DNA of 64,000 bases from Mesotoga infera. Lineage in GTDB: Bacteria > Thermotogota > Thermotogae > Petrotogales > Kosmotogaceae. The notes below the pieces were generated by a model. The model ran no database searches. It was given only the letters and a program-made list of their open reading frames with translations, and was not told the origin of the DNA. Shown here in pieces: positions 17,096-32,480 of the stretch (position 1 is its first letter; each line of letters starts with the position of its first letter). The stretch lies in contig NZ_LS974202.1 of the NCBI RefSeq assembly GCF_900157305.1, positions 558,001 to 622,000 of the forward strand, in the 5' to 3' direction. Made by a program: the position numbers and the translations under genes.

Positions 17096-17164
17096 TCGCC
17101 TATGATCTGGGATTGCAATAATTGCTGAGGAAAAATGGTATCTGTAGTCTGGAGGCGAATCGAA

Positions 17165-17941
17165 ATGATAGATGAGAAAAAGATAAAGGCGTACGGTCGT
17201 GCCGTTATGATGAGGATCCTGGCCGACAGAGAAACGAAGAAGAGAATGGAGAGAGAAGTTCTCTCAATTATCAGGGACAAAGTCTTCGATAGCGGTCGCA
17301 ACGACCCTTACGAAGTTCTAGGCGATCCATCCGTCTTTGCCAGGGAGTATCTGGACGAAATGCGGACCATCTACCCTAAGGCCAGGTATATAGGAGGAGG
17401 CGGCGGAAGAACCACAGGTCGCTCCTACGGCTACGAGTACACTTCAAAGGCAACAATCGCGGGAGTCCCTCTGGTTCATATAAACACAAGGCCGCTCGGT
17501 CTGGCTAAAGGGATAATAGCCATCGGGAGTGTCGCAGTGGGTGTTATCTCGCTCGGCGGCATTTCGCTGGGCGTAATCTCGCTGGGCGGCATTTCGCTGG
17601 CACTCTCTCTATCGCTGGGCGGGGTCTCGGCGAGCCTCTGGGTAGCCTTCGGTGGTTTGTCCGTGGCTCTTTACATGGCCATCGGTGGTCTGGCGATCGC
17701 CTACGACATAGCCATCGGCGGCGCGGCTCTGGCGAACAACTATGCGCTCGGCGGTTTCGCTTCGGCCAGAGTGGCCATAGGCGGCGAGGCAAGGGGGATG
17801 ATCGCAATCTATTATCAGAAGGGCTTTGGAGATTATCTTTTGAAACTCCCGGCTACGGCTCACCAGATAGTGGGCTTCATCACTACGAAAACCGGGGGTA
17901 TTAGCGGACTCTTTGAGTGGATTATAAGGCTTCTCTTCTGA
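17165..17941 (+). CDS. Membrane-associated protein with tandem 11-residue Gly-Gly repeats
   Basis: Start ATG 17165 follows GGAGG (17151-17155); the upstream GTG/ATG options lack one. 258 residues. The first 75 residues are charged and helical, with a pattern like N-terminal HAAS/DUF1700-type domains (YEVLGDPSVFAREYLDEM). Residues about 105-220 hold about eight copies of an 11-residue unit with the core [A/S][L/I/F]GG (SLGGISLGVI, AFGGLSVALYM, AIGGLAIAYDI, AIGGAALANNY). Glycine pairs every 10-11 residues suggest packed membrane helices or a short-rung beta structure. A 30-bp near-exact DNA duplication lies in the first repeats (about 17546-17600). Function unknown. Confidence 0.65.
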   Translation: MIDEKKIKAYGRAVMMRILADRETKKRMEREVLSIIRDKVFDSGRNDPYEVLGDPSVFAREYLDEMRTIYPKARYIGGGGGRTTGRSYGYEYTSKATIAGVPLVHINTRPLGLAKGIIAIGSVAVGVISLGGISLGVISLGGISLALSLSLGGVSASLWVAFGGLSVALYMAIGGLAIAYDIAIGGAALANNYALGGFASARVAIGGEARGMIAIYYQKGFGDYLLKLPATAHQIVGFITTKTGGISGLFEWIIRLLF

Positions 17942-18030
17942 TAGGAAGTGTTCAGAGAAAATTATCAAAGAAAAACTCCCCGTTACTCGTTTTATGGTAG
18001 TATTTCAGAGTAAGAAAATTGAATAAAGCA

Positions 18031-18102
18031 TCGCCTGTATAATCGCGGGAATATGGCCCGCGAGTCTCTACCGGCAACCGTAAATTGCCTGGCTACAGGT
18101 GA
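18031..18102 (+). promoter_or_regulatory. Purine (guanine-class) riboswitch aptamer, copy 1 of 2
   Basis: P1 is 18031-18038 with 18095-18102 (8 bp); P2 is CGCGGG 18044-18049 with CCCGCG 18057-18062 around the loop AATATGG; P3 begins at 18072 with L3 CCGTAAA. The J1/2 segment TATAAT, the J2/3 segment TCTCTACC and the kissing loops match the purine family. The base at the position 74 equivalent (18093) is C and that at 51 (18069) is T, which by established rules means guanine/hypoxanthine rather than adenine. One extra T sits between P3 and J3/1. A possible extended -10 (TGGTAGTAT, 17995-18003) lies just upstream. Confidence 0.93.
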
Positions 18103-18120
18103 CTTTTCGTTTTTATAACC

Positions 18121-18156
18121 GAACGAGAGTTGCCTGAGGCTCTCGTTTTTATTTTT
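18121..18156 (+). terminator. Terminator of riboswitch copy 1
   Basis: ACGAGAG (18123-18129) pairs with CTCTCGT (18140-18146), followed by TTTTT ATTTTT. It lies 20 nt after aptamer 1, the standard place for a purine riboswitch transcription terminator. The antiterminator pairing is not obvious to me. Confidence 0.88.
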
Positions 18157-18228
18157 CACCTGTATAATCGCGGGAATATGGCCCGCGAGTCTCTACCGGC
18201 AACCGTAAAATTGCCTGGCTATGGGTGA
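18156..18228 (+). promoter_or_regulatory. Purine (guanine-class) riboswitch aptamer, copy 2 of 2
   Basis: Nearly identical to copy 1 over about 60 nt from P1 through J3/1. It differs by one extra A in L3 (CCGTAAAA) and in the 3' strand of P1 (ATGGGTGAG), which pairs with more G-U wobbles at the ligand-proximal end. P2 is 18169-18174 with 18182-18187; the specificity base C is at 18219 and T at 18194. It starts only 54 nt after copy 1, directly behind the first terminator. Confidence 0.93.
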
Positions 18229-18243
18229 GTCCTGTGATTTAAC

Positions 18244-18271
18244 GACCCCGCGGGCTCGCCTTTGCGGGGTC
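18244..18271 (+). promoter_or_regulatory. GC-rich hairpin after riboswitch copy 2 (expression platform)
   Basis: GACCCCGC (18244-18251) pairs with GCGGGGTC (18264-18271) across a 12-nt loop. It ends 10 nt before the purE Shine-Dalgarno GGAGG (18282-18286). There is no U-tract, so it may be a weak or pausing terminator, or act on translation; copy 1 by contrast has a canonical terminator. Confidence 0.65.
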
Positions 18272-18292
18272 AGTCTATTGTGGAGGTTTTCA

Positions 18293-18793
18293 ATGGCTTT
18301 AGTGGCTGTGGTTATGGGGAGCAAGTCCGACCTCCCCGTGGCCCGAAGATGTACCGAAACACTCGAAAGACTTTCCGTTGGTTTTGAATTGAGAATCATG
18401 TCCGCGCATCGCACACCTTCTTTTGTAATGGAATACGCACTCTCGGTGAGGGAAAAAGGAATAGATGTGATAGTGGCCATAGCAGGGAAGGCGGCTCATC
18501 TGGCCGGTGTGATCGCCGCCTGCACATGCCTGCCGGTAATAGGCCTTCCGGTCAAATCCTCCACGCTCGATGGGTTGGATTCGCTGCTATCCACAGTTCA
18601 GATGCCTAAAGGTGTGCCGGTGGCCACGGTGGCGATCGATGGTGCCGAGAACGCAGCGCTCCTGGCTGCCAGGATACTGTCCATAAAATACCCGCAAGTG
18701 AGGGAAAGACTGGAATCGTATATTCGGCAAATGCGAGAGGAAGTCTTGAATAGCGACGAAGAGTTACGTTCGAATACAGAGGGAGGGATTTGA
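18293..18793 (+). CDS. purE: PurE, phosphoribosylaminoimidazole carboxylase / N5-CAIR mutase
   Basis: Start ATG 18293 with GGAGG upstream. 166 residues: GSKSDL, SAHRTP (catalytic His), and GLPVKSSTLDGLDSLLSTVQMP match class I PurE, and the short VAIDGAENAALL region resembles the T. maritima enzyme. However, the active-site loop usually written AGGAAHLPG reads AGKAAHLAG here. It makes CAIR, either from N5-CAIR (class I, needing PurK) or from AIR and CO2. No purK is in the operon or window. First gene behind the tandem riboswitch; 1 bp before purC. Confidence 0.95.
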   Translation: MALVAVVMGSKSDLPVARRCTETLERLSVGFELRIMSAHRTPSFVMEYALSVREKGIDVIVAIAGKAAHLAGVIAACTCLPVIGLPVKSSTLDGLDSLLSTVQMPKGVPVATVAIDGAENAALLAARILSIKYPQVRERLESYIRQMREEVLNSDEELRSNTEGGI

Positions 18794-18794
18794 G

Positions 18795-19511
18795 TTGATA
18801 GCGAGAGATCTGCTTTACGAGGGAAAGGCCAAGAAGGTCTTCCTGACAGACAGGGACGACAGATACCTTATAAGGTACAAGGATGACGCAACGGCCTTCA
18901 ATGGAGAGAAAAAGGGCAGCATCATCGGAAAGGGCGCCATTAACAACACCATGTCGGCCTACTTTTTCCAGCTACTTCAGAGCGAAGGTGTGGAGAGCCA
19001 TTTTGTGGAACAGACGAGTTCGACCGAGATGGTTGTCAGAAGGGTGGAGATAATCCCGCTCGAGGTTATAGTGAGAAACATCGCCGCCGGTTCTATGTCC
19101 GCAAGACTGGGAATTGCCGAAGGAACGCAACTCGCCAGGCCGGTCGTCGAGTTCTCCTACAAGAGGGACGATCTGGGCGATCCGCTGGTCAACGACGACC
19201 ATATCCTGGCACTAGGCCTTGCAGATGAAGAAGAACTCGCCAAGTTGAGAGAGATGGCGTTGAGGGTGAATACGATACTTAGGGAGTATTTATCGAAAGC
19301 CGGAATAACACTGGTGGATTTCAAACTGGAGTTCGGCAGGCTGGATAACGGGGAGATCCTGCTGGCCGACGAGATCAGTCCCGATACTTGCCGGTTCTGG
19401 GATAGCGAGACGGGAGAGAAGATGGATAAGGATCGTTTCAGGAGGGATCTGGGAAACATCGAGGAAGGTTACAGGAAGGCTTTGAAAAGAGTCCTCGGAG
19501 GTGGAAAATGA
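18795..19511 (+). CDS. purC: SAICAR synthetase PurC
   Basis: 238 residues from TTG 18795 with GGGAGGG upstream. The SAICAR synthetase pattern is clear: [50 protein letters not shown] and [12 protein letters not shown]. It joins CAIR and aspartate with ATP. The stop overlaps purS by 4 bp. Confidence 0.97.
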
Positions 19512-19753
19512 AGGCAACCGTCTATGTAACTCTCAAAAACGGCATCGCCGATCCACAGGGGCTGGCGGTGAGGAACGCACTCGATTCAATGGGTTTCGAC
19601 GGGGTGAAGAGAGTGCGAATAGGCAAAATAATAGAGATAGAGCTGGAAGATGGCTGTCCGGACGGTTCAAAAGTAGAAGAAATGTGTCGTTCCCTTCTGG
19701 CCAATACGGTCATGGAGGATTTTACCTTCGAAATGAGCGGCGAGAAAAGATGA
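19508..19753 (+). CDS. purS: PurS, FGAM synthase small subunit
   Basis: 81 residues ([39 protein letters not shown]), the typical small PurS that bridges PurL and PurQ in the three-part FGAM synthetase. It has 4-bp overlaps with both purC and purQ, so all three subunits are translated together. Confidence 0.97.
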
Positions 19754-20466
19754 AGGTGGCCATCGTGGTATTTCCGGGGTCAAACTGCGATCTCGATGCT
19801 TATCAAGCCATCTTAGAGAGCGGAGAAGAGGCAAGTTACGTGTGGCATATGGAAAAGAGCCTCGAAGGTTTCGACGCGGTAATACTTCCGGGAGGCTTTT
19901 CCTACGGCGACTACCTCAGATGCGGCGCGATAGCCCGTTTCTCGCCCATCATGGCGTCCGTCAGGAAGATGGCCGAAAATGGAAGGCCCGTTCTTGGTAT
20001 CTGCAACGGTTTCCAGATACTGACTGAGGCCGGTCTCCTGCCGGGAGTTTTACTCAGGAACAGGGATCTAAAATTTATCTGCAAGAACGTCTATTTGAGG
20101 GTCGAATCGACCATGAGCCCTTTCACGAAGGCATTAGAAAGCGGAAGTGTTCTCAAGATACCGATCGCTCACGGGGACGGAAACTACTTCGTCGATGGAG
20201 AAACACTCCGCAGCCTCGAAGAGAACGGCCAGGTGATCTTCCGCTACTGCTCCGCCGACGGGGAAGTCTCCCCACAGTTCAACCCCAACGGATCGATCTC
20301 GAACATTGCCGGGGTCTCCAACGCACGGGGAAATGTTCTGGGAATGATGCCACACCCGGAGAGAGTCTGCGCGGAGATCACGGGAGGCACCGACGGGCTC
20401 CTTCTCTTCAAGTCAATGATCTCTTTCCTGAAGGGGGGTATGGCCGGTGAGCTCGTCAACTCTTGA
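19750..20466 (+). CDS. purQ: PurQ, FGAM synthase glutaminase subunit
   Basis: The true start is ATG 19750, overlapping the purS stop (ATGA); 238 residues. Class I glutamine amidotransferase: FPGSNCD, nucleophile Cys in GICNGFQ, and the His-Glu pair in PHPER. It supplies ammonia from glutamine to PurL. It overlaps purL by 20 bp. Confidence 0.97.
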
Positions 20467-22651
20467 TTACTCGCCGTTGGGTCTCAGCCATTCTGAGTTC
20501 GATCTGATTTGCGAGAAGCTCGGTAGGGAGCCGAATCCACTTGAACTGGCCATGTTCGGGGTGATGTGGTCCGAGCATTGCAGTTACAAAAACTCAAAAG
20601 CTCTACTCAAAACGCTTCCGACAGGCGGCAGCTCTATCCTTCAGGGTCCAGGCGAGAACGCCGGGATTGTCGATATCGGTGAGGGGTTGGCTGTAGTGAT
20701 GAAAGTCGAAAGCCACAACCACCCTTCGGCCGTCGAGCCCTACCAGGGCGCTGCAACCGGCGTCGGTGGAATCATAAGAGATATCTTCACCATGGGGGCA
20801 AGACCGATCGCTCTGCTAAATTCGTTGAGGTTCGGCGAGCTGGATAAGGCCAGGACCAGGTATCTCTTCGAGAACGTGGTGAAGGGTATAGGAGATTACG
20901 GCAACTGTATGGGGATACCGACCGTGGCCGGAGAGATCTACTTTGACGATCACTATACGGGCAACCCCCTGGTCAACGCGATGTGCGTGGGAATAATGAG
21001 GCACGAAGAGGTCAAGTACGCCAGGGCAAAAGGAATCGGCAACCCTGTAATGCTCGTGGGGGCAACCACCGGGCGCGATGGCATGGGTGGGGCGGCCTTC
21101 GCCTCTGTCGAGCTGACCGAGCAGTCTCTGGAGAGGAAATCGGCCGTTCAGGTCGGAGATCCCTTCATGGAGAAGCTTCTTCTGGAAGCCTGTATAGAAC
21201 TCTTCAAGACCGATGCCGTGGTCGCAATTCAGGACCTCGGCGCGGCCGGGTTGACCTCTTCGTGCTGTGAGATGGCCAGCCGCGGGAAGAGCGGAATATG
21301 GATAGAACTATCTTGTATTCCGCTAAGAGAAGAGGCCATGACACCGGTAGAAATAATGCTCTCGGAGTCTCAGGAGAGGATGCTGGTCGTCGTGAAACGG
21401 GGAAGAGAGAAGGAGGTTGGGGCGATCTTCGAGAAATGGGGACTCAGCGGAACGGTGATAGGAGAGGTGACAGATGACGGACTCCTCACCGTACTGGAGA
21501 GAGGAAAAGTCGTTGCCTCGCTGCCTGCGAGACTGCTGGCCGACGACGCCCCTGTTTATACGAGAGAGTCAACCAGGCCGGCCTATCTGGAGAGTGTTGG
21601 ACGTTTCGATCTACTCGAAAGTGAAGATATGAATATTGAGGAGACGCTGATCGCGCTCCTGCAAAGACCGACGATAGCCGGTAAAGAATGGGTTTACAGT
21701 CAGTACGACCATATGGTGAGGACAAGTACGGTGACGGGGCCGGGAAGCGATGCGGCCGTAATACGCATTAGGGGTACAAACAGAGCGATAGCCCTCACGA
21801 TAGATGGTAACGGTTCTTACTGTTATCTCGATCCATTCATGGGGGCTGCGATAGCAGTCGCTGAAGCCGCACGAAACCTGGTCTGTTCGGGTGCCAGGCC
21901 GCTTGCGATAACCGACGGTCTGAACTTCGGAAACCCTGAAAAGAGAGAGATCTACTGGCAGTTCAAAGAGACGATCGCCGGTCTGACCGCTGCATGCGAT
22001 GTTCTGGAGACACCGGTAATAAGCGGAAACGTTTCCTTCTACAACGAAACCGAAACCGGGGCTATATTCCCCACTCCCATCGTTGGAATGGTGGGTGTGA
22101 TAGAGGACATTTCGAAGGTGACGGGGAGCTTTTTTATCAACGAGGGCGACGTGATACTCCTCCTCGGCGAGAATACCAATGAACTGGGCGGTAGCGAATA
22201 TCTCAGAATGCTCACAGGTAGAACGATCGGAGAGTGTCCCACGATAGATCTCGAAAGGGAGAAGAGGGTTCAAAGGCTCTGTCTTGAAGCCATAGGAAGA
22301 AGGCTACTCGACTCGGCCCACGATTGCAGCGAGGGTGGACTGGCCGTTGCACTTTCAGAATGCTGTTTTGGAAAAGGTCTCGGGGCGAAAATCGAACTTA
22401 ACGATACATTGCCGATCGATGCGCTTCTTTTCGGGGAGGCCCAGTCGAGGATCGTGGTCTCACTGAAGGAGTCGAAGCTCGACTCTCTCCTCGAGCTGGC
22501 CGGGGAGTTCGGCGTACCCGCTCGGATCCTGGGCAGGGTCGGCAGTAATGAGCTAAAGATAGATGTGTGGGGCAGGGAGGTCTTGTCCGCGACGGTTGGA
22601 GAGCTAGAAGCTCGCTGGAGGGGGGCGATCGAATGCGCGATGAGATCATGA
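20447..22651 (+). CDS. purL: PurL, FGAM synthase ATP-binding subunit (small type)
   Basis: 734 residues, the usual length of small PurL that needs PurS and PurQ. GTG start at 20447 preceded by AAGGGGGG within purQ. Motifs: [56 protein letters not shown], and the second half [20 protein letters not shown]. It converts FGAR to FGAM using ATP and ammonia. Confidence 0.97.
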
Positions 22652-24054
22652 GAGAGGAATTGAAGGAAGAATGCGGCGTTTTCGGTATAGTCTCTAGAGA
22701 GGGAAGGGCCTCCAGGACTACCTACTACGGGCTCTTCGCCCTTCAGCACAGGGGTCAGGAGAGTGCGGGAATAGCCGTATCGGAAGATGGAGACATACAT
22801 CTGCACAAAGCCATGGGTCTGGTAGGAGAAGTCTTCGACGACGCGAAGCTGGAAGAATTGAAGGGAGATCTCGCGGTCGGTCATGTCCGCTACTCCACCT
22901 CCGGGGACAGTAGTGTGATCAACGCACAGCCTCTCGTTTTCAAGACCAGGCAAGGAACGATTGCCCTCTGTCATAACGGCAACCTGGCCAACTCTTTGGC
23001 TCTGCGGGAAAGTCTGAAAGAAAAAGGGTCTATCTTCCAGACAACTGTAGATACAGAGGTAATCGCGGCGCTCCTGGCCGGCAGTTCCGACAGCGATCTG
23101 GTGATATCTATAAGGAGCGTGATGAAGGAACTGAAAGGCGCTTACGCTCTAATAATAATGACACGCGACAGGTTGATCGGTGTTAGAGATCCTCTGGGTA
23201 TAAGACCTTTGTGTATAGGAAGGAAAGAAAAAGATCTGATGCTCTCCTCTGAGAGTTGCGCCTTCGAAACTGTCGGGGGGAGCCTTCTGAGGGACGTAAT
23301 GCCCGGTGAAATCGTCGTGATCGACAGGTCGGGAATGAAGAGCTATCCTCCGGAAGAGAAGAACGAAGAGAAACTATGTATCTTCGAGTTCATATACTTC
23401 GGCAGGCCCGACAGCGTAATGAAGGGTCAGAGTCTTTACATGAGCCGAAAAAGGGCCGGAAAAATACTTTGCAGAGAGGTTCCGGCCGACGCCGACTTCG
23501 TCTGTTCCGTTCCCGATTCCGGTACGCCTTCGGCCATAGGCTTCTCCGAGGCCTCGGGAATACCTTTTCTCGAGGGGCTTGTGAAGAACAGGTACGTAGG
23601 CCGAACGTTCATAAAGCCTTCTCAAAATCAGAGAGAGATCGGAGTGGCGCTTAAGCTAAACGTACTGGAAGAAGTTGTGAGAGGGAAATCGATCGTTCTC
23701 GTTGACGATTCTATCGTCAGGGGAACTACCATAAAAAGACTTATCTCCAGACTCAGGGCATGCGGAGCGGGAAAGATACACCTGCGGATCAGCGCGCCGC
23801 CCGTCATGTGGCCCTGCTTTTTCGGAATAGACACTCCATCCAGGGACGAGCTCCTCGGGGCGCGCTTCTCTGTGGAGGAGATCGGACGACTGGTGGGAGC
23901 AGACAGCATCGGTTACCTAAGTCTGGAAGGACTAATAGAGGCCACTTCCAGTTCAGGCTTCTGCACAGGCTGCTTCTCGGGACAGTACCCGTTGGATATA
24001 GAGGGCGCCGACGGAAGGTACGCGTTGGATACCGCTCAGAAGGTGAGAACATGA
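22633..24054 (+). CDS. purF: PurF, amidophosphoribosyltransferase
   Basis: I start it at ATG 22633, 7 nt after a long GGAGGGGGG; ATG 22648 would overlap the purL stop but lacks a site. 473 residues with a short propeptide before the N-terminal nucleophile Cys (EECGVFGI), the glutaminase domain and the PRPP motif [12 protein letters not shown]. The four cysteines of the Bacillus-type [4Fe-4S] enzyme are present ([27 protein letters not shown]), so it is probably an Fe-S protein matured by propeptide removal. It catalyses the committed step of purine synthesis. Confidence 0.97.
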
Positions 24055-25076
24055 GCGATTACAGGAGTTCCGGAGTCGATATAGACGCTGGGGACAGGGC
24101 CGTCGAGCTCATGAAGCGACACGTGGAAACTACCAGGACGCCCGGGGTGTTGGGAGGCATTGGCTCCTTCGGAGGACTATTCCGTCCTGATCTTGCCGGG
24201 ATGGAAGAACCCGTGCTGGTTTCGGGAACTGACGGAGTCGGCACTAAATTGAAACTGGCCTTCGCGATGGACATTCACGATAGCGTTGGAGTAGATTGCG
24301 TGGCCATGTGTGTCAACGACATAATTTCAATGGGTGCGACACCGCTGTTCTTTCTCGATTACATAGCTATCGGAAGGCTTGAACCCGGGAAGATCGAGAA
24401 AATCGTTAGCGGTGTATGCGAAGGATGCAGACAGGCCTCCAGCGCCCTTATCGGAGGAGAGACGGCCGAGATGCCCGGGCTGTATGCCGAAAGTGAATAC
24501 GACCTGGCCGGTTTTGCAGTAGGATTGGTAGATAGACAGGAGATTATCGACGGCTCGACGATAGAGAAAGGAGACATTCTCGTAGGATGGCCCTCTTCGG
24601 GCTTTCACTCCAACGGCTTTTCACTCGTTCGGAAGATCATCTCGGATGAAAAAATAGATCTTTACGAGACCATTCCAGGCTTCTCGAGACCGATAGGTCT
24701 CGAGCTGCTCACACCCACAAGAATATACGTCTCGCTCTTGGAAAGATTGAAAAAGCTCTGTAAACCAAAAGGGATCGCACACATCACCGGCGGGGGACTT
24801 CTAGAAAATCTTCCCAGGGTAATACCCGAAGGCCTTAAGTGCGAGATACACACCGACTCCTGGGAGGTGCCGCCTGTGATCGAGTTCATTGTCGAGAGGG
24901 GTGGCGTCGAAGTCAGGGAGGCCTACAGGACCTTCAACATGGGGATCGGCCTGGTTACCGCGTTCTCTCCCGACGATGCCGATACTGTCCTGCAAGGAAT
25001 GAAGGATGAAAAACCGGTTGAGATCGGTGTGGTGGTGGCCGGGGAGGGTGGTGTTACGCTTTGCCGAAGAGGATAG
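24051..25076 (+). CDS. purM: PurM, AIR synthetase
   Basis: 341 residues from ATG 24051 (ATGA overlap with purF). AIR synthetase features: YRSSGVDIDAGDRAV, GTDGVGTKLKLA, VDCVAMCVNDI, GGETAEMPG and VGWPSSGFHSNGFSL. It closes FGAM to AIR with ATP. It overlaps purN by 16 bp. Confidence 0.97.
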   Translation: MSDYRSSGVDIDAGDRAVELMKRHVETTRTPGVLGGIGSFGGLFRPDLAGMEEPVLVSGTDGVGTKLKLAFAMDIHDSVGVDCVAMCVNDIISMGATPLFFLDYIAIGRLEPGKIEKIVSGVCEGCRQASSALIGGETAEMPGLYAESEYDLAGFAVGLVDRQEIIDGSTIEKGDILVGWPSSGFHSNGFSLVRKIISDEKIDLYETIPGFSRPIGLELLTPTRIYVSLLERLKKLCKPKGIAHITGGGLLENLPRVIPEGLKCEIHTDSWEVPPVIEFIVERGGVEVREAYRTFNMGIGLVTAFSPDDADTVLQGMKDEKPVEIGVVVAGEGGVTLCRRG

Positions 25077-25714
25077 CCGTACTTGTATCCGGTAACGGGA
25101 GCAACCTTGAAAGATTGATCGAACTCTCCGTGTCAGGTTTCATAGATGGAGAGATATCGCTGGTAATCTCGAGCAACGAAAAGGCCTTCGCGCTTGAGAG
25201 AGCGAAGAGGCACTCTATACCCTCGCACGTAGTGCATTACGGCGGTCGATCTGGTGGCGATTACAGTGATGCGATCCTCCAGATCGTCGAGGATTGTCGA
25301 ATAGACCTGATCGTCCTCGCAGGGTTTCTTAAAATTCTCTCGGGAAATATCATCGAGCGCTTCAGGAACAGGATAATAAATCTGCACCCTTCTCTGATAC
25401 CCTCCTTCTGCGGAAAGGGAATGTACGGAGAGAAAGTTCACAGGGCGGTTATCGAGAGCGGAGTCAGGATAACCGGCGCAACGGTTCACTTCGTTGACGG
25501 AGGAACCGACACCGGTCCGATAATACTGCAGGAATCCGTTCCCGTCTTTTGCGACGATTCGGTCGAAAGTCTCTCCGGAAGGGTGGCTCAGGTCGAGCAC
25601 AGATTGCTTCCGAAGGCCGTCTCTCTCTTCTGCGAGAACAGGTTGACGGTCATGGGAAAGAGAGTTTTGATAACAGGAGGTTTCTATGAAGACAGCGTTG
25701 TTGAGCGTCTCTAA
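25061..25714 (+). CDS. purN: PurN, GAR transformylase (folate-dependent)
   Basis: 217 residues from TTG 25061 with GGGGAGGG 12 nt upstream. VSGNGSNLERLI, the catalytic Asn-His-Asp set (INLHPSLIPSF, GATVHFV, DTGPII) and the formyl-THF enzyme pattern are present. It is about 15 residues longer at the C-terminus than usual, running 29 bp into purH. It forms FGAR from GAR and 10-formyl-THF. Confidence 0.95.
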   Translation: MPKRIAVLVSGNGSNLERLIELSVSGFIDGEISLVISSNEKAFALERAKRHSIPSHVVHYGGRSGGDYSDAILQIVEDCRIDLIVLAGFLKILSGNIIERFRNRIINLHPSLIPSFCGKGMYGEKVHRAVIESGVRITGATVHFVDGGTDTGPIILQESVPVFCDDSVESLSGRVAQVEHRLLPKAVSLFCENRLTVMGKRVLITGGFYEDSVVERL

Positions 25715-27206
25715 CAAAGAAGGTATAGTCGATTTTGCGAAACAACTTTCGGATAGAGGTTTTCGGATACTCTCCAGTGGAGGCACACAGAGGGAGCTGG
25801 CCGCTTCGGGGGTAGAGGTTTTGGCCGTATCTGATCTGACCGGTTTCCCAGAGTGCTTTGACGGACGGGTGAAGACTCTCCATCCGGCCGTTCATGCCGG
25901 AATACTTGCCAAGAGAGAGTTGCCTGAACACATGAAGAAGCTGGCGCAACTTGGAATCGACACGATTGATCTCGTGGCCGTTAACCTTTACCCCTTCAAG
26001 GAGGCGATCTCCGGCAACGGCGCGACGCTGGAGGAGGCGATAGAAAATATAGATATAGGAGGTCCGGCCATGCTCCGTTCGGCCGCGAAGAATTATGGCG
26101 ATGTGATCGCACTGGTCGATCCGTCAGACTACACAGGCGTCATAAAGGAGCTCGATGCCGGCGGCCCTTCCAGAGCATTCAGACTGAAGCTGGCGGCGAA
26201 GGTCTTCAGGCACGTGGCCCACTACGATTCGATAATAGCATCTCATCTAAGTGGGCTGTGCGGGGAGAGTCTGACTGAAAAGATAAACATTACGATTGAG
26301 AAGGTCCAGGACCTCAGGTACGGCGAAAATCCCCACCAGAGGGCGGCTCTTTACCGCTATCCCTTGAGTTATCCACTCGGGGGATATGTTCAGATACAGG
26401 GAAAGGAACTCTCCTTCAACAACCTCACCGACGCGGGAGCGGCAATGGAACTTTTGAGAGAGTTCACCAGCAATACGGCCCTGATAACGTTGAAGCACAC
26501 CAATCCTTGCGGTGTAGGTCTGGCCGATACGACTTTAGAAGCCTGGAAAAAGGCGTATGGTTGTGATCGGGTATCCGTGTTCGGAGGCATAGTGGCGACC
26601 AACGGAACCGTGGATAGCGAGCTGGCAGGAGAGTTGAAAAACGTCTTTCTCGAGGTAATAATGGCGCCGGTCTTCACATCACGAGCGCTTGAGATACTTT
26701 CTACCAAAAAGAACATAAGAATCCTGAAGATCGATCCCGTTTTCAAGTGCAACGAGTACGATTTCAAGTCGATACCCGGTGGAATGGTTGTTCAGGGCAG
26801 AGATAACGCAATGCTGGGAGAAGGACTGAGAATCGTAACGGCAAAAAAACCCGACGAGAGGGAAATGGAAGATATGCTCTTCGCATGGAAGGTTGTGAAA
26901 CACGTCAAATCGAACGCCATAGTTCTGGCCAGGCAAGGCCAGACCCTTGGAATAGGACCGGGTCAGACCAGCAGAATCTGGGCTCTGGAGAATGCGATAA
27001 GACAATCGAATTACGATCTGAAGGGTGCCGTTATGGCGTCGGATGGTTTCTTTCCCTTCCAGGACTGTGTTGAAGCGGCCGCGAAGGCCGGGATAGGTGC
27101 CATCATCCAGCCCGGCGGATCGATCAAAGACGAAGACTCCATAGAGGCAGCCGACAGACTCGGGCTTTCATTGGTCTTCACTGGCATGCGTCACTTCAAG
27201 CATTGA
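25686..27206 (+). CDS. purH: PurH, bifunctional AICAR transformylase / IMP cyclohydrolase
   Basis: 506 residues, ATG with AGGAGG upstream. The N-terminal cyclohydrolase domain (VSNKEGIVDFAKQL, GRVKTLHPAVHAG) and C-terminal transformylase (DLRYGENPHQRAALY, TLKHTNPCGVG, IGPGQTSR) are both complete, so the last two steps to IMP are on one chain. Confidence 0.97.
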   Translation: MKTALLSVSNKEGIVDFAKQLSDRGFRILSSGGTQRELAASGVEVLAVSDLTGFPECFDGRVKTLHPAVHAGILAKRELPEHMKKLAQLGIDTIDLVAVNLYPFKEAISGNGATLEEAIENIDIGGPAMLRSAAKNYGDVIALVDPSDYTGVIKELDAGGPSRAFRLKLAAKVFRHVAHYDSIIASHLSGLCGESLTEKINITIEKVQDLRYGENPHQRAALYRYPLSYPLGGYVQIQGKELSFNNLTDAGAAMELLREFTSNTALITLKHTNPCGVGLADTTLEAWKKAYGCDRVSVFGGIVATNGTVDSELAGELKNVFLEVIMAPVFTSRALEILSTKKNIRILKIDPVFKCNEYDFKSIPGGMVVQGRDNAMLGEGLRIVTAKKPDEREMEDMLFAWKVVKHVKSNAIVLARQGQTLGIGPGQTSRIWALENAIRQSNYDLKGAVMASDGFFPFQDCVEAAAKAGIGAIIQPGGSIKDEDSIEAADRLGLSLVFTGMRHFKH

Positions 27207-27217
27207 GGACGAAAATC

Positions 27218-28477
27218 ATGAGAATACTTGTCATAGGGAACGGCGGCCGCGAGGCCGCACTTGCCTGGAAACTCTCCCAAAGCGAAGGGCTGGAGAAGCT
27301 ATTTTGCGCACCGGGAAACCCCGGAACATCGTCAATAGCGGAAAACGTTCCCCTGGAACCCTGCGATATAGAGGGTCTGCTGGCCTTCGCGATGAAACAT
27401 GGAATAGACCTCACTGTCGTTGGTCCCGAGAAACCTCTCTCAATGGGCATAGTAGATCGCTTCAGGGGAATGGGTCTGGCCGTATTCGGTCCCACCAGAG
27501 ATTGTGCCCGGCTCGAAACCAGTAAGATCTTCGCCAAAAGGTTCATGAACCTCCACGGCATTCCCACGGCCCGTCACGCGAGCGCCAGATATTACTTGCA
27601 GGCTCTTGCCGAGCTGGAGAATTTTGAGCTACCCCTGGTGATAAAGGCCGACGGACTGGCGGCCGGTAAGGGCGTCTTCATAGCAGAACGGCAGGAGGAA
27701 GCGCATCAAATACTCAGGGATTTGCTTATCGAAGACTCTCTAAAAGAGGCCGGCTCCAGGGTTGTTATAGAGGAATTTCTTAATGGAAGAGAGCTTTCCG
27801 TATTCGTCCTGTCTGACGGAAAGCGGGTGGTGGAACTCGCAGAGGCCCGCGATTTCAAAAAAGCCTTCGACGGAGACCTCGGTCCCAACACCGGTGGAAT
27901 GGGCGCCATTTCTCCAGTCCCCGATTATACGGAGCGGCTCCGCGAAGAGTTCAGGAGCAATATCCTTCGCCCAACAGTTGAAGGACTGACTAAAGAAGGC
28001 CTCTCCTACACGGGGCTTCTGTATTTCGGCCTCATAAATACACCGGCCGGGTTGAAAGTTCTGGAATTCAACTGCCGTTTCGGCGATCCCGAAACGCAGG
28101 CTATAATGCCCAGGATCGACTTCGACCTGGCCCGAGTTCTGTACGATTGCGCCAAAGGCCAACTGAAAGAAGAGCGGCTAAGGCTAAAGCGGGAGTGCGC
28201 CGTAACTGTCGTCGCCTGTTCGCAAGGGTACCCAGGTCGGTACATGACGGGTTGCGAGGTATCTGGACTATCCGAGAGCGACTGCATCCTCTTCCAGGCC
28301 GGTACGGGGTGCAGCGAAGAGAAAATCGTAACGACGGGCGGCAGGGTGCTGGCCGTAACGGGCCTTGAAAGTGATTTTTACCGAGCAAAGAGGAAGGCTT
28401 ACGGTGCACTGGAAAGGATCCGTTTCAAAGGGATGACATTCAGGAAAGACATAGGAGTCGAATTTGATGTAAACTAG
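27218..28477 (+). CDS. purD: PurD, GAR synthetase
   Basis: ATG 27218 preceded by GAGGA; 419 residues. ATP-grasp enzyme: GNGGREAALAWKL at the N-terminus (the usual REHAL reads REAAL), DLTVVGPEKPLSMGIVD, KADGLAAGKGVF, GPNTGGMGA and FNCRFGDPETQ. It joins phosphoribosylamine and glycine. In many operons purD is last; here purB and purA follow. Confidence 0.96.
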   Translation: MRILVIGNGGREAALAWKLSQSEGLEKLFCAPGNPGTSSIAENVPLEPCDIEGLLAFAMKHGIDLTVVGPEKPLSMGIVDRFRGMGLAVFGPTRDCARLETSKIFAKRFMNLHGIPTARHASARYYLQALAELENFELPLVIKADGLAAGKGVFIAERQEEAHQILRDLLIEDSLKEAGSRVVIEEFLNGRELSVFVLSDGKRVVELAEARDFKKAFDGDLGPNTGGMGAISPVPDYTERLREEFRSNILRPTVEGLTKEGLSYTGLLYFGLINTPAGLKVLEFNCRFGDPETQAIMPRIDFDLARVLYDCAKGQLKEERLRLKRECAVTVVACSQGYPGRYMTGCEVSGLSESDCILFQAGTGCSEEKIVTTGGRVLAVTGLESDFYRAKRKAYGALERIRFKGMTFRKDIGVEFDVN

Positions 28478-28502
28478 AGTTTGTCAGCACGGGAGGTTGA
28501 TT

Positions 28503-29801
28503 ATGATCGAGCGTTACGCGCTTTCGCCATTGAAGGAGCTCTGGGAACTCAAGGCCCAGTACGGGAGATGGCTTGAGGTTGAGCTTGCGGTGGTAAAGGC
28601 CTATGAAGAGACCGGCCGTGCGCCGGCAGGAACGACGGAAAAGATAAGATCTAAGGCGAGAATAGATGTCGAAGGTATCGCGGAGATCGAAAAGGTAGTC
28701 GATCACGATGTCATCGCCTTTATAAAATACGTTACGCGTGAGATGGGCGACGAAGCTCGCTATTTTCACCTAGGCCTCACATCGTCGGACATAGTCGATA
28801 CGGCCCTTTCGCTGGCCGTGCGTGAGTCGGGCCTGGCGATAATACGGGCTCTGACGGAGCTTTCGCAGGCTCTAGGGGAGCAGGCTCTCATCTACAAGGA
28901 TACTGTATGCATGGGACGGACCCATGGGATACACGCCGAGCCGACCTCCTTCGGTCTGAAATTCCTTTCCTTCATGGTCGAGACCGATAGGAACATAAAA
29001 CGACTCAGCAGGAGCGTGGAGACTTGCTCGGTCGGAAAACTGAGCGGTGCCGTGGGCAACTACGCCAACATATCGCCAGAGGTTGAGGCTATCGCCCTCA
29101 GGGAGATAGGTCTGAGGCCGACGGAGGTATCGACGCAGATCGTTCCGAGGGATATCCACGCCGAATTCATCTCGGCCATAGCGATAGCGGCCTCTTCGAT
29201 CGAGAGGATGGTCGTCGAGTTTCGGCATCTCCAGCGGACGGAAGTCCTGGAGGTCCAGGAACCTTTCAAAAAGGGACAGAGAGGCTCTTCGGCCATGCCC
29301 CACAAGAAGAATCCCATAATCTGCGAGCGTCTGACCGGAATGGCCCGGCTTCTGAGAGGTTATGCCGCCGCTGCCCTGGAGGATATAGCCCTCTGGCATG
29401 AAAGAGATATCTCTCATTCCAGCGTCGAGAGAATAATGTTGCCTGACGCCACTATGCTCCTGTACTATATGGCGAAGAAGTCTCTCGATCTGGTGAGGGA
29501 TCTGGTAGTGTATCCCGAGAGGATGCTGGAAAACTTCAAAGCCTCCAGAAATCTGGTCTTCTCCCAGCGTGTAATGCTGACGCTTGTCGAAAAAGGCATG
29601 ACAAGGGAGGAAGCGTACAGACTCGTCCAGGAGCTCTCCATGAAATGCTGGAACGAGGGTCGCGACTTCAAAGAAGCCGTTGAGAAAAGTCGTGAGATAG
29701 GAAAGTACATTGATCCGGACGAAATAGATGAACTGTTCGATCCCGAGTATTACCTGAGAAACGTAGATCCGATCTTCAAAAGAATCTTGGACGGAGGCTG
29801 A
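28503..29801 (+). CDS. purB: PurB, adenylosuccinate lyase
   Basis: Start ATG 28503 (GGGAGG 6 nt upstream; the TTG at 28497 abuts it). 432 residues, with TSSDIVDTALSL, GRTHGIHAEPTSFG and the signature GSSAMPHKKNP. It acts twice: SAICAR to AICAR, and adenylosuccinate to AMP. 4 bp from purA. Confidence 0.97.
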   Translation: MIERYALSPLKELWELKAQYGRWLEVELAVVKAYEETGRAPAGTTEKIRSKARIDVEGIAEIEKVVDHDVIAFIKYVTREMGDEARYFHLGLTSSDIVDTALSLAVRESGLAIIRALTELSQALGEQALIYKDTVCMGRTHGIHAEPTSFGLKFLSFMVETDRNIKRLSRSVETCSVGKLSGAVGNYANISPEVEAIALREIGLRPTEVSTQIVPRDIHAEFISAIAIAASSIERMVVEFRHLQRTEVLEVQEPFKKGQRGSSAMPHKKNPIICERLTGMARLLRGYAAAALEDIALWHERDISHSSVERIMLPDATMLLYYMAKKSLDLVRDLVVYPERMLENFKASRNLVFSQRVMLTLVEKGMTREEAYRLVQELSMKCWNEGRDFKEAVEKSREIGKYIDPDEIDELFDPEYYLRNVDPIFKRILDGG

Positions 29802-29805
29802 TCCA

Positions 29806-31059
29806 ATGCAGAGACTGGCCATTGTGGGAGCCCAATGGGGCGACGAAGGAAAGGGAAAGGTAGTCAATTACTTCTCGAAGGATTTCGAGTGGATAGTCAG
29901 GTTCTCCGGCGGGGCCAATGCCGGCCACACAATATACGTCGATGGCAAGAAATATGTGAATCATCTTCTGCCTTCGATACAACCCAGGAACGCTTCCAGG
30001 GGCTTTCTTGGGGCCGGAATGGTAATAGACGTGGAGCAGCTAATTAACGAGTTCGAGACTCTGGAGGCCGACTTCCCGGGCATCTCCTGCCGGTTCTACA
30101 TAGACCCGGAGGCCTTCGCAGTTCTCCCCTGGCACAAAGAGGAGGACGTGCTGCTCGAGACTATGCGTAAAGAGCCTATCGGAACCACGGGCAGAGGGAT
30201 TGGCCCCTCCTACACCGACAAAGTGTCGCGAGAAGGCCTGAAACTCTATACACTCTTCGACGAGAACCTGCTCAGGGAGAGGTTGGAATCGATCTACCAT
30301 ATGAAACAGAATATATACAACAACAGGCTCACCGTTTCGCCGGAGGATATGTTCAAATACCTCCAGAAGCTGCGCGGCGAACTGGAAAGACTGAAGGTAA
30401 ATTTCACCAGCGCCGTAGATATGTCGCGCGTCTTCAGGAGTACATCGGTACTCTTCGAAGGAGCCCAGGGCGTTCTGCTCGATCTCGATTTCGGAACTTA
30501 TCCCTTCGTGACCTCCGGAGCATGCATGGCACATGGCGTTTCGTCGGTCGGTTTCTCTACATTCGAGCTAGACAGCGTTTACGGCGTGCTGAAGGCCTAC
30601 ACCACAAGAGTGGGGGCCGGTCCCTTTCCCACCGAGGACTTCACCGAAACTGGAGAGAAGATACGCGAGATAGGCAAGGAGTACGGCGCCACCACCGGAA
30701 GGCCGAGGAGGGTGGGCTGGCTCGACCTGCCGGCGTTGAGGTACGCCAGGATCAGATCGGGGCTCACCGGATTCGTCATAACCAAAGGCGATGTGCTCAA
30801 CGGACTGGAAGAAGTCAAAGTCTGCGTGGCTTACGATGTGGATGGGGTGGTGAAGGAAGTGCCCTCTACCTCGTACGATTTCTTCAGGGCAAAGCCAATC
30901 TATGAGACGGTAAAGGGCTGGCCCACGACCGACCACATAAACTTCCTGAAGTACATGACCTTCATCGAGAGAGAGACCGGCGTCGAGATCGACTACATCT
31001 CCTACGGTCCTAAAACCGAAGAGATGAAGACCAGGAACGACCTGATAATAAATATTTGA
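29806..31059 (+). CDS. purA: PurA, adenylosuccinate synthetase
   Basis: 417 residues: GAQWGDEGKGKVVNYF (GTP loop), GGANAGHTIYVDG, GTTGRGIGPSYTDK, FEGAQGVLLDLDFGTYPFVTS and TTGRPRRVGWLD. It makes adenylosuccinate from IMP, aspartate and GTP. Its presence takes the operon through to AMP. Confidence 0.97.
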   Translation: MQRLAIVGAQWGDEGKGKVVNYFSKDFEWIVRFSGGANAGHTIYVDGKKYVNHLLPSIQPRNASRGFLGAGMVIDVEQLINEFETLEADFPGISCRFYIDPEAFAVLPWHKEEDVLLETMRKEPIGTTGRGIGPSYTDKVSREGLKLYTLFDENLLRERLESIYHMKQNIYNNRLTVSPEDMFKYLQKLRGELERLKVNFTSAVDMSRVFRSTSVLFEGAQGVLLDLDFGTYPFVTSGACMAHGVSSVGFSTFELDSVYGVLKAYTTRVGAGPFPTEDFTETGEKIREIGKEYGATTGRPRRVGWLDLPALRYARIRSGLTGFVITKGDVLNGLEEVKVCVAYDVDGVVKEVPSTSYDFFRAKPIYETVKGWPTTDHINFLKYMTFIERETGVEIDYISYGPKTEEMKTRNDLIINI

Positions 31060-31091: not shown

Positions 31092-32480
31092 ATGGATATA
31101 CGACTCAACAACACGATGTCGAGAGAGAAGGAAGTCTTCAAACCGCTGACTGCGGGGGAGGTGAAACTCTACACCTGTGGACTGACCGTTTACAACTACG
31201 CACACATAGGCAACTTGAGGGCCTATATCTTTGCCGATACCCTCAAGAGGATGTTCCTTTTCAACGGCTACAAAGTGAACCACGTGATGAATATTACAGA
31301 TGTCGGCCACCTCACCGGCGACGAAGATGAAGGCGAAGACAAGATGGAGGCCGGTGCCAGACGAGAAGGAAAGACCGTCTGGGAGATCGTCGATTTCTAC
31401 ACGAAGGCTTTTTTCAAAGATTTGGAAAGATTGCGTATACTCTTCCCCACGACCACGTGCAGGGCGACCGAACACGTGAGCGACATGATAGAGATGATAA
31501 AAAAGATAGAGGCCAACGGCTACACTTACATTGCCGGCGGAAACGTCTATTTCGACACGTCCAAACTTCCCGATTACGGCAAACTCGCCAGACTGCAACT
31601 AGATGAAGATAGAATGAGATCGAGGGTGGAAAGCGATCCATACAAGAGAAACCCCTTCGACTTCGTGCTCTGGTTCACCCGGTACAAATACACCAACCAC
31701 GCGATGCAGTGGGATTCGCCCTGGGGAAGAGGCTTCCCCGGCTGGCACATAGAGTGCTCGGCCATGTCCTCCAAATACCTGGGCGAGAGGTTCGACATAC
31801 ACACCGGCGGGATCGACCATATCCCCATACATCACACCAATGAAATAGCCCAGAGCGAGGCGGCCTTCGGCCACGAGTGGGTCAATTACTGGTTGCACTC
31901 GGAGTTTCTCGTGATCGGAGAGGGCGAAAAGATGTCGAAATCGCTGGGCAACTTCATCACCCTCCAGACGCTGATCGACATGGGTTACGATCCAATGGAT
32001 TACAGGTATTACCTGCTAGGCGCCCATTACAGAAAACAGCTGGCCTTCACCTTCGAAGCTCTCGATGGTGCGAGGAACGCCATGAAAAGACTCAAGATAA
32101 GCATAGCCGAATTGAAGGAGATTCAAAGCCCTTCAGCCGTAGCCGATCCTGAACTGCTTGAAGAGTTCCACGAGGCCATCAACGACGATCTCAACACGCC
32201 AAAAGCCCTGGCGGTGCTATGGAAGGTTATCGATAGCGAAGATCTGTCGGCCGGTGAAAAACTCGCGCTGATAGAGCAATTTGAAAGGGTGCTGGCGCTC
32301 GGACTGGCTGAAGTCGAGAGCGACACGATACCCGGAGAGATCGAGGAGCTCGCTCTGCAGCGAAAGCAGGCCAGGAAAGATAGAAACTGGAAAAGGGCCG
32401 ACGAATTGAGGGAACTGATCTCGGAGAAGGGGTACGAAATCCTCGACGACCGCGACGGGTATAAAATAAGAAAAAAGTGA
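31092..32480 (+). CDS. cysS: Cysteinyl-tRNA synthetase
   Basis: 462 residues, ATG with GGAGG 12 nt upstream and 32 bp after purA, so likely on the same transcript. Class I features: YAHIGNLRAY (HIGH-type) and EKMSKSLGN (KMSKS). Zinc ligands appear kept: Cys in YTCGLTVY, Cys in HIECSAM, and His/Glu in HHTNE. Two spots differ from the common form: CGLTVY for CGPTVY and GGIDHIPIHHTNE for GGxDLxFPHHENE, a variant seen in some divergent bacterial clades. An unusual operon mate for purine genes. Confidence 0.95.
   Translation: MDIRLNNTMSREKEVFKPLTAGEVKLYTCGLTVYNYAHIGNLRAYIFADTLKRMFLFNGYKVNHVMNITDVGHLTGDEDEGEDKMEAGARREGKTVWEIVDFYTKAFFKDLERLRILFPTTTCRATEHVSDMIEMIKKIEANGYTYIAGGNVYFDTSKLPDYGKLARLQLDEDRMRSRVESDPYKRNPFDFVLWFTRYKYTNHAMQWDSPWGRGFPGWHIECSAMSSKYLGERFDIHTGGIDHIPIHHTNEIAQSEAAFGHEWVNYWLHSEFLVIGEGEKMSKSLGNFITLQTLIDMGYDPMDYRYYLLGAHYRKQLAFTFEALDGARNAMKRLKISIAELKEIQSPSAVADPELLEEFHEAINDDLNTPKALAVLWKVIDSEDLSAGEKLALIEQFERVLALGLAEVESDTIPGEIEELALQRKQARKDRNWKRADELRELISEKGYEILDDRDGYKIRKK

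Follow-up and report, generated by a model that had tools for sequence, protein, structure and literature searches.

The window, by which we mean the whole 64,000-nucleotide stretch of Mesotoga infera DNA analyzed here, carries on its plus strand, where the leader features described below also lie, a 12-gene operon, purECSQLFMNHDBA (18293-31059), every gene of which gives an NCBIfam match above the cutoff. The operon runs from purE (18293-18793), whose ATG at 18293 is preceded by the Shine-Dalgarno (SD) sequence GGAGG at 18282-18286, to purA (29806-31059), with cysS following at 31092, about 32 nt farther on. Upstream, a gene at 17135-17941 encodes a 268-aa product with glycine-rich hydrophobic repeats and without an NCBIfam match; it is intact in some relatives, and the matched stretch is interrupted by stops in G024, G027, G028, and G031. 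A cmscan search of the whole window against Rfam recovered two matches to RF00167 ahead of purE, at 18015-18115 (84.9 bits; E value, 7e-14) and 18140-18241 (70.7 bits; E value, 1.9e-10), both above the gathering cutoff of 37 bits and both with a three-way junction with P1 to P3; no other Rfam family reached its gathering score in the whole window. These two significant Infernal matches bear out the earlier note, which had placed two guanine-class aptamers at 18031-18102 and 18156-18228, in front of the whole pur operon. A third RF00167 element of the genome lies in another leader, before a gene whose start reads as that of guaA, and has a canonical terminator.

The P1 strands of aptamer 1 (18031-18102) are 18031-18039 and 18094-18102, and those of aptamer 2 (18156-18228) are 18156-18164 and 18220-18228, with two wobble pairs in the latter helix. 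In both, the J3/1 segment carries, before UA, the C characteristic of the guanine subtype (C18093 and C18219), and the 59-nt cores (GUAUAAUC to GGCUA), described in the note as almost identical, differ only by one extra A in L3 of aptamer 2. Both aptamers depart from the Rfam consensus in J2/3, which reads GUCUCUACC versus the consensus GUUUCUACC (C for U), and in J3/1, which is GGCUA versus GACUA, where G replaces A immediately 5' of the specificity C. Neither deviation is unique to this locus, since both recur among relatives within the family; the xpt aptamer of G020 is an example. Judged from the specificity base, both aptamers are of the guanine subtype, with guanine or hypoxanthine as the probable ligand.

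Upstream of aptamer 1, we read a putative extended -10 promoter element, TG-g-TAGTAT (17995-18003), whose TGrTAg/aAT form recurs in G026 and in the family's leaders of guaA and xpt. This element is absent from the results of a sigma-70 two-hexamer scan, and a sequence scan found no promoter-like site between the two aptamers, which are presumably borne on one transcript. Aptamer 1 is followed by an intrinsic terminator (18121-18156) with orthologues in G026 and G025. It comprises an 11-bp hairpin (18121-18148), the apical loop of which is a near-copy of the P1 5' strand (UUGCCUG versus UCGCCUG), and then UUAUUUUU, with the U-run continuing to 18156 and overlapping the first P1 base of aptamer 2. 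Its U-tract score (nT, according to d'Aubenton-Carafa) is 4.99. In the minimum-free-energy (MFE) folds of transcripts ending at 18136-18144, an antiterminator (18096-18136) is formed instead, in which the P1 3' strand plus ACUUUUCGUU pairs with AACGAGAGUUGCCUG; this duplex is worth -20.3 kcal/mol and was equaled by 1 of 2,000 dinucleotide shuffles. The pairing is retained in platform 1 of G026, where none of 2,000 shuffles did as well.

The second platform has a terminator-like GC hairpin, GACCCCGC...GCGGGGUC (18244-18271), which is followed by AGUCUAUUGU without a U-run and the loop of which includes a near-copy of the P1 5' strand (CUCGCC versus UCACC). Its antiterminator (18224-18260), seen in the MFE folds of transcripts ending at 18260-18264, pairs GGUGAGUCC (18224-18232) with GGGCUCGCC (18252-18260), and 11 of 2,000 dinucleotide shuffles were as good. 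Platform 2 of G025 retains this pairing as GGUGAGUC/GACUCACC (5 of 2,000 shuffles as good), with the two A/G differences between its GACUCACC and the GGGCUCGCC of the window being kept as A-U or G-U pairs; the equivalent hairpin there is stronger and has the tail UCUAUUUC. Both hairpins are as the note had them, a canonical U-tract terminator following aptamer 1 and a GC hairpin that lacks a U-run following aptamer 2. The second hairpin stands at the place of a terminator, its U-run having been lost or never present. Because almost no U-tract is found (nT of 0.72 in the window and 0.75 in G025), its termination activity is doubtful, and platform 2 may switch nothing.

When the leader is folded along the growing transcript, the MFE structure of each platform proceeds from P1-P2-P3 to the antiterminator and then to P1 plus hairpin: P1 opens as soon as the downstream hairpin's loop has been synthesized, with the P1 3' strand joining the antiterminator, and P1 and the hairpin return once the 3' arm of the hairpin (18121-18148 or 18244-18271) is made. 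There are thus two sets of mutually exclusive platform folds, one per aptamer. An exception is the second-unit transcript that ends at 18245, for which another fold, almost equal in energy, came out lowest. The same path is followed by platform 1 of G026 and platform 2 of G025. The complementarity between the P1 3' strand and the hairpin loop beats 99.4 to 100% of dinucleotide shuffles and survives substitutions to G-U pairs. On account of this pairing and of the modeled fold path, both units look like OFF switches, a direction that fits biosynthesis genes. In a survey of 82 purine aptamers across the phylum, made with a simple search that misses bulged stems, 53 have an unbulged hairpin with an nT of at least 3 downstream of them, the U-run often leading straight into the SD, which points to transcription attenuation as the rule among the purine riboswitches of the phylum. 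The single guanine riboswitch in the xpt leader of G021 (L041, positions ~1250 to 1450) has a terminator-like hairpin followed by UAUUAUUU, not a U-run, beside the SD; U-runs are present in its relatives from G020 and G022.

In the phylum, 54 of 103 genomes have RF00167 matches; two on the same strand within a single leader were found only in the genus of the window, in keeping with the rarity claimed for such tandems. Three genomes of this genus have the pur operon. Besides the window, these are G026 (PurE 94% identical over the residues matched), in which terminator 1 and both aptamers are present and the contig stops just past aptamer 2, and G025 (PurE 73% identical), in which the contig begins inside terminator 1 and continues through aptamer 2 and the hairpin into purE. 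Platform 2 of G026 and aptamer 1 of G025 lie beyond the contig ends. In the comparison of relatives suggested by the note, G026 shows two copies, G025 shows aptamer 2 with a terminator 1 remnant, and G022 and G018, which carry the other two pur operons of the family, have one aptamer each. These contig ends (G026:C42/C62 and G025:C109) are breaks of draft assemblies within the riboswitch repeat, and tandem copies may on this account be undercounted in draft genomes.

The other genomes of the genus lack purE and a full purH. In five of them (G029, G028, G031, G024, and G023), the syntenic place has the same upstream gene and then, after ~240 nt, purB, followed by purA and cysS in the stretches long enough to show them; the tandem riboswitch and the purECSQLFMNHD block (17941-28503 of the window) are missing there (L155 to L159). 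Based on gene content, these five might be purine auxotrophs. A purB tree sets them apart with support of 98/96 and leaves G025, G000 plus G026, and the five-genome group as an unresolved three-way split. The sequence TGATGTAAACTA, the terminal part of purD in the window, is kept in the purB leader of four of the five purD-less genomes. The purD end itself (28464-28480; TTTGATGTAAACTA, EFDVN and stop) is nearly conserved in those leaders (L155 at ~3070, L156, L157, and L158) and may represent either the scar left by a deletion or a shared promoter for purB.

The earlier note had ascribed the close identity of the aptamers to recent duplication or gene conversion. The first of these is contradicted by the tandem in G026 and by the terminator 1 remnant that accompanies aptamer 2 in G025, which place the duplication before these species. 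The two window cores are 0 substitutions apart, and aptamer 2 of G025 differs from both by five. If the tandem is older than the divergence of G025, copies without conversion would be expected to have diverged no less than orthologues have; the identity favors gene conversion or strong shared constraint; with six sequences compared and aptamer 1 of G025 beyond its contig end, this is a lean rather than a test. A bacillotal donor already carrying a tandem was also considered as the origin and rejected, for none of the 79 purE loci of other genomes has two purine aptamers (four have guanine plus PRPP aptamers and four have one purine aptamer); a PurE tree left the Mesotoga branch unplaced.

Taking these findings together, we propose, with fair confidence, that two independent guanine (or hypoxanthine) OFF riboswitches in series control the pur operon. 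Transcription would start just upstream of aptamer 1, at the inferred promoter. In the absence of ligand, the P1 3' strand would pair, as part of the antiterminator helix, with the 5' arm of the downstream hairpin and its loop, giving readthrough; with ligand bound, P1 would be locked, the hairpin would form, and polymerase would stop at the canonical U-tract terminator of platform 1. Polymerases that escape would face the same decision at aptamer 2, where the platform, poor in its U-tract, would act as a weaker or factor-assisted terminator or as a pause before the purE ribosome site. The net effect would be pseudo-cooperative: the response would steepen modestly and its half-point would fall, and the chief consequence for the 12 genes would be reduced leakage. 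The digital-like shutoff suggested earlier is an overstatement: for two identical independent switches, f = (1/(1 + x))^2, and by this arithmetic the 10 to 90% range shrinks only from 81-fold for a single switch to about 40-fold, with the half-point at 0.41 Kd. The predicted gain in steepness is moderate, and the squared leakage may be the larger benefit.

One alternative, anticipated in the note as combined transcription and translation control, is that aptamer 1 governs transcription termination and aptamer 2 governs initiation of purE translation through its hairpin. The lack of a U-run past hairpin 2 in both the window and G025, and the end of this hairpin just 10 nt before the SD, would suit such a division of labor, and pairs of this kind are recorded for other classes (PMC9481103). 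However, the SD lies outside hairpin 2, and in thermodynamic models that include neither ligand energy nor kinetics, its openness with P1 plus hairpin is at least that in the antiterminator state (0.28 versus 0.11 and 0.66 versus 0.22 in the window; 0.55 versus 0.48 and 0.41 versus 0.40 in G025), i.e., the effect is in the wrong direction for an OFF switch, or there is none. Moreover, such regulation would be limited to purE and the genes translationally coupled to it. Sequestration of the SD by the hairpin thus finds no support in the modeling, and we regard this alternative as unlikely. For platform 2 we therefore prefer the role proposed above, that of a pause site or a weak terminator, perhaps helped by a factor. 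A guanine tandem that is transcriptional at its first unit and translational (or acting by factor-dependent pausing) at its second, with cores kept identical by gene conversion and with distinct P1 helices and platforms, strikes us as more doubtful still. It might also be argued that platform 2 is decaying, with riboswitch 1 alone regulating and aptamer 2 a relic kept similar by gene conversion; the degenerate U-tract, the extra A in L3, and the two wobble pairs of P1 in aptamer 2 would be signs of this. We give this reading little credence: G025, despite its divergent PurE, keeps aptamer 2 with a stronger hairpin and perfect pairing between the P1 3' strand and the loop, and its change in P2 is compensatory (U-A to C-G). 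Finally, a guanine-PRPP tandem can be dismissed for the window, which has no RF00442-type match and has a terminator between its aptamers.

We favor, then, two switches in series, and several parallels are offered by known systems. The locus itself is not described in the titles or abstracts of papers naming Mesotoga together with riboswitch or purine. The single guanine riboswitches that precede purE, guaA, and xpt in the family (G022, G018, G020, and G021; guaA of G000, G025, G026, and G028) have the same core, which is 95% identical to that of G022 over 64 nt, and hairpin loops like the P1 5' strand, but they have one aptamer only where the window has two. The tandem glycine riboswitch likewise has two like aptamers in series; its aptamers, however, share one platform and can bind cooperatively, whereas those of the window have one platform each. 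In the guanine-PRPP tandem, an IMPLY gate (PMC5912903), a guanine aptamer also comes first, but the second aptamer binds PRPP and a single terminator is shared, in contrast to the second guanine aptamer and the intervening terminator of the window. We found such tandems, with the PRPP aptamer recognized by RF00442, before pur genes of Caldanaerobacter, Thermoanaerobacter, and Thermotalea, including upstream of purE in Thermoanaerobacteraceae and Thermotalea.

In other classes, duplicated riboswitches act as independent units in series (PMC2258182; PMC9481103) and give a more digital switch (PMC2258182). The closest counterparts are the seven double guanine riboswitches and one triple guanine riboswitch that the 2022 report (PMC9481103) counts among pseudo-cooperative same-class tandems. 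The tandem of the window is real, conserved, and probably functional, and, with its two same-class aptamers, each with its own platform on what is presumably a single transcript, it is of that rare but already recorded kind. It offers a clear, conserved double guanine riboswitch heading a complete pur operon, with a single copy or none in neighboring species, and could serve to test the contribution of a second copy to leak, half-point, and steepness, as well as the evolution of duplicated RNA sensors. The general picture of tandem riboswitches is unchanged by it. Like the doublets of that report, which the passage on them gives without organism or gene names, it combines two guanine aptamers and their individual expression platforms in one leader; unlike them, its second platform has no U-tract.
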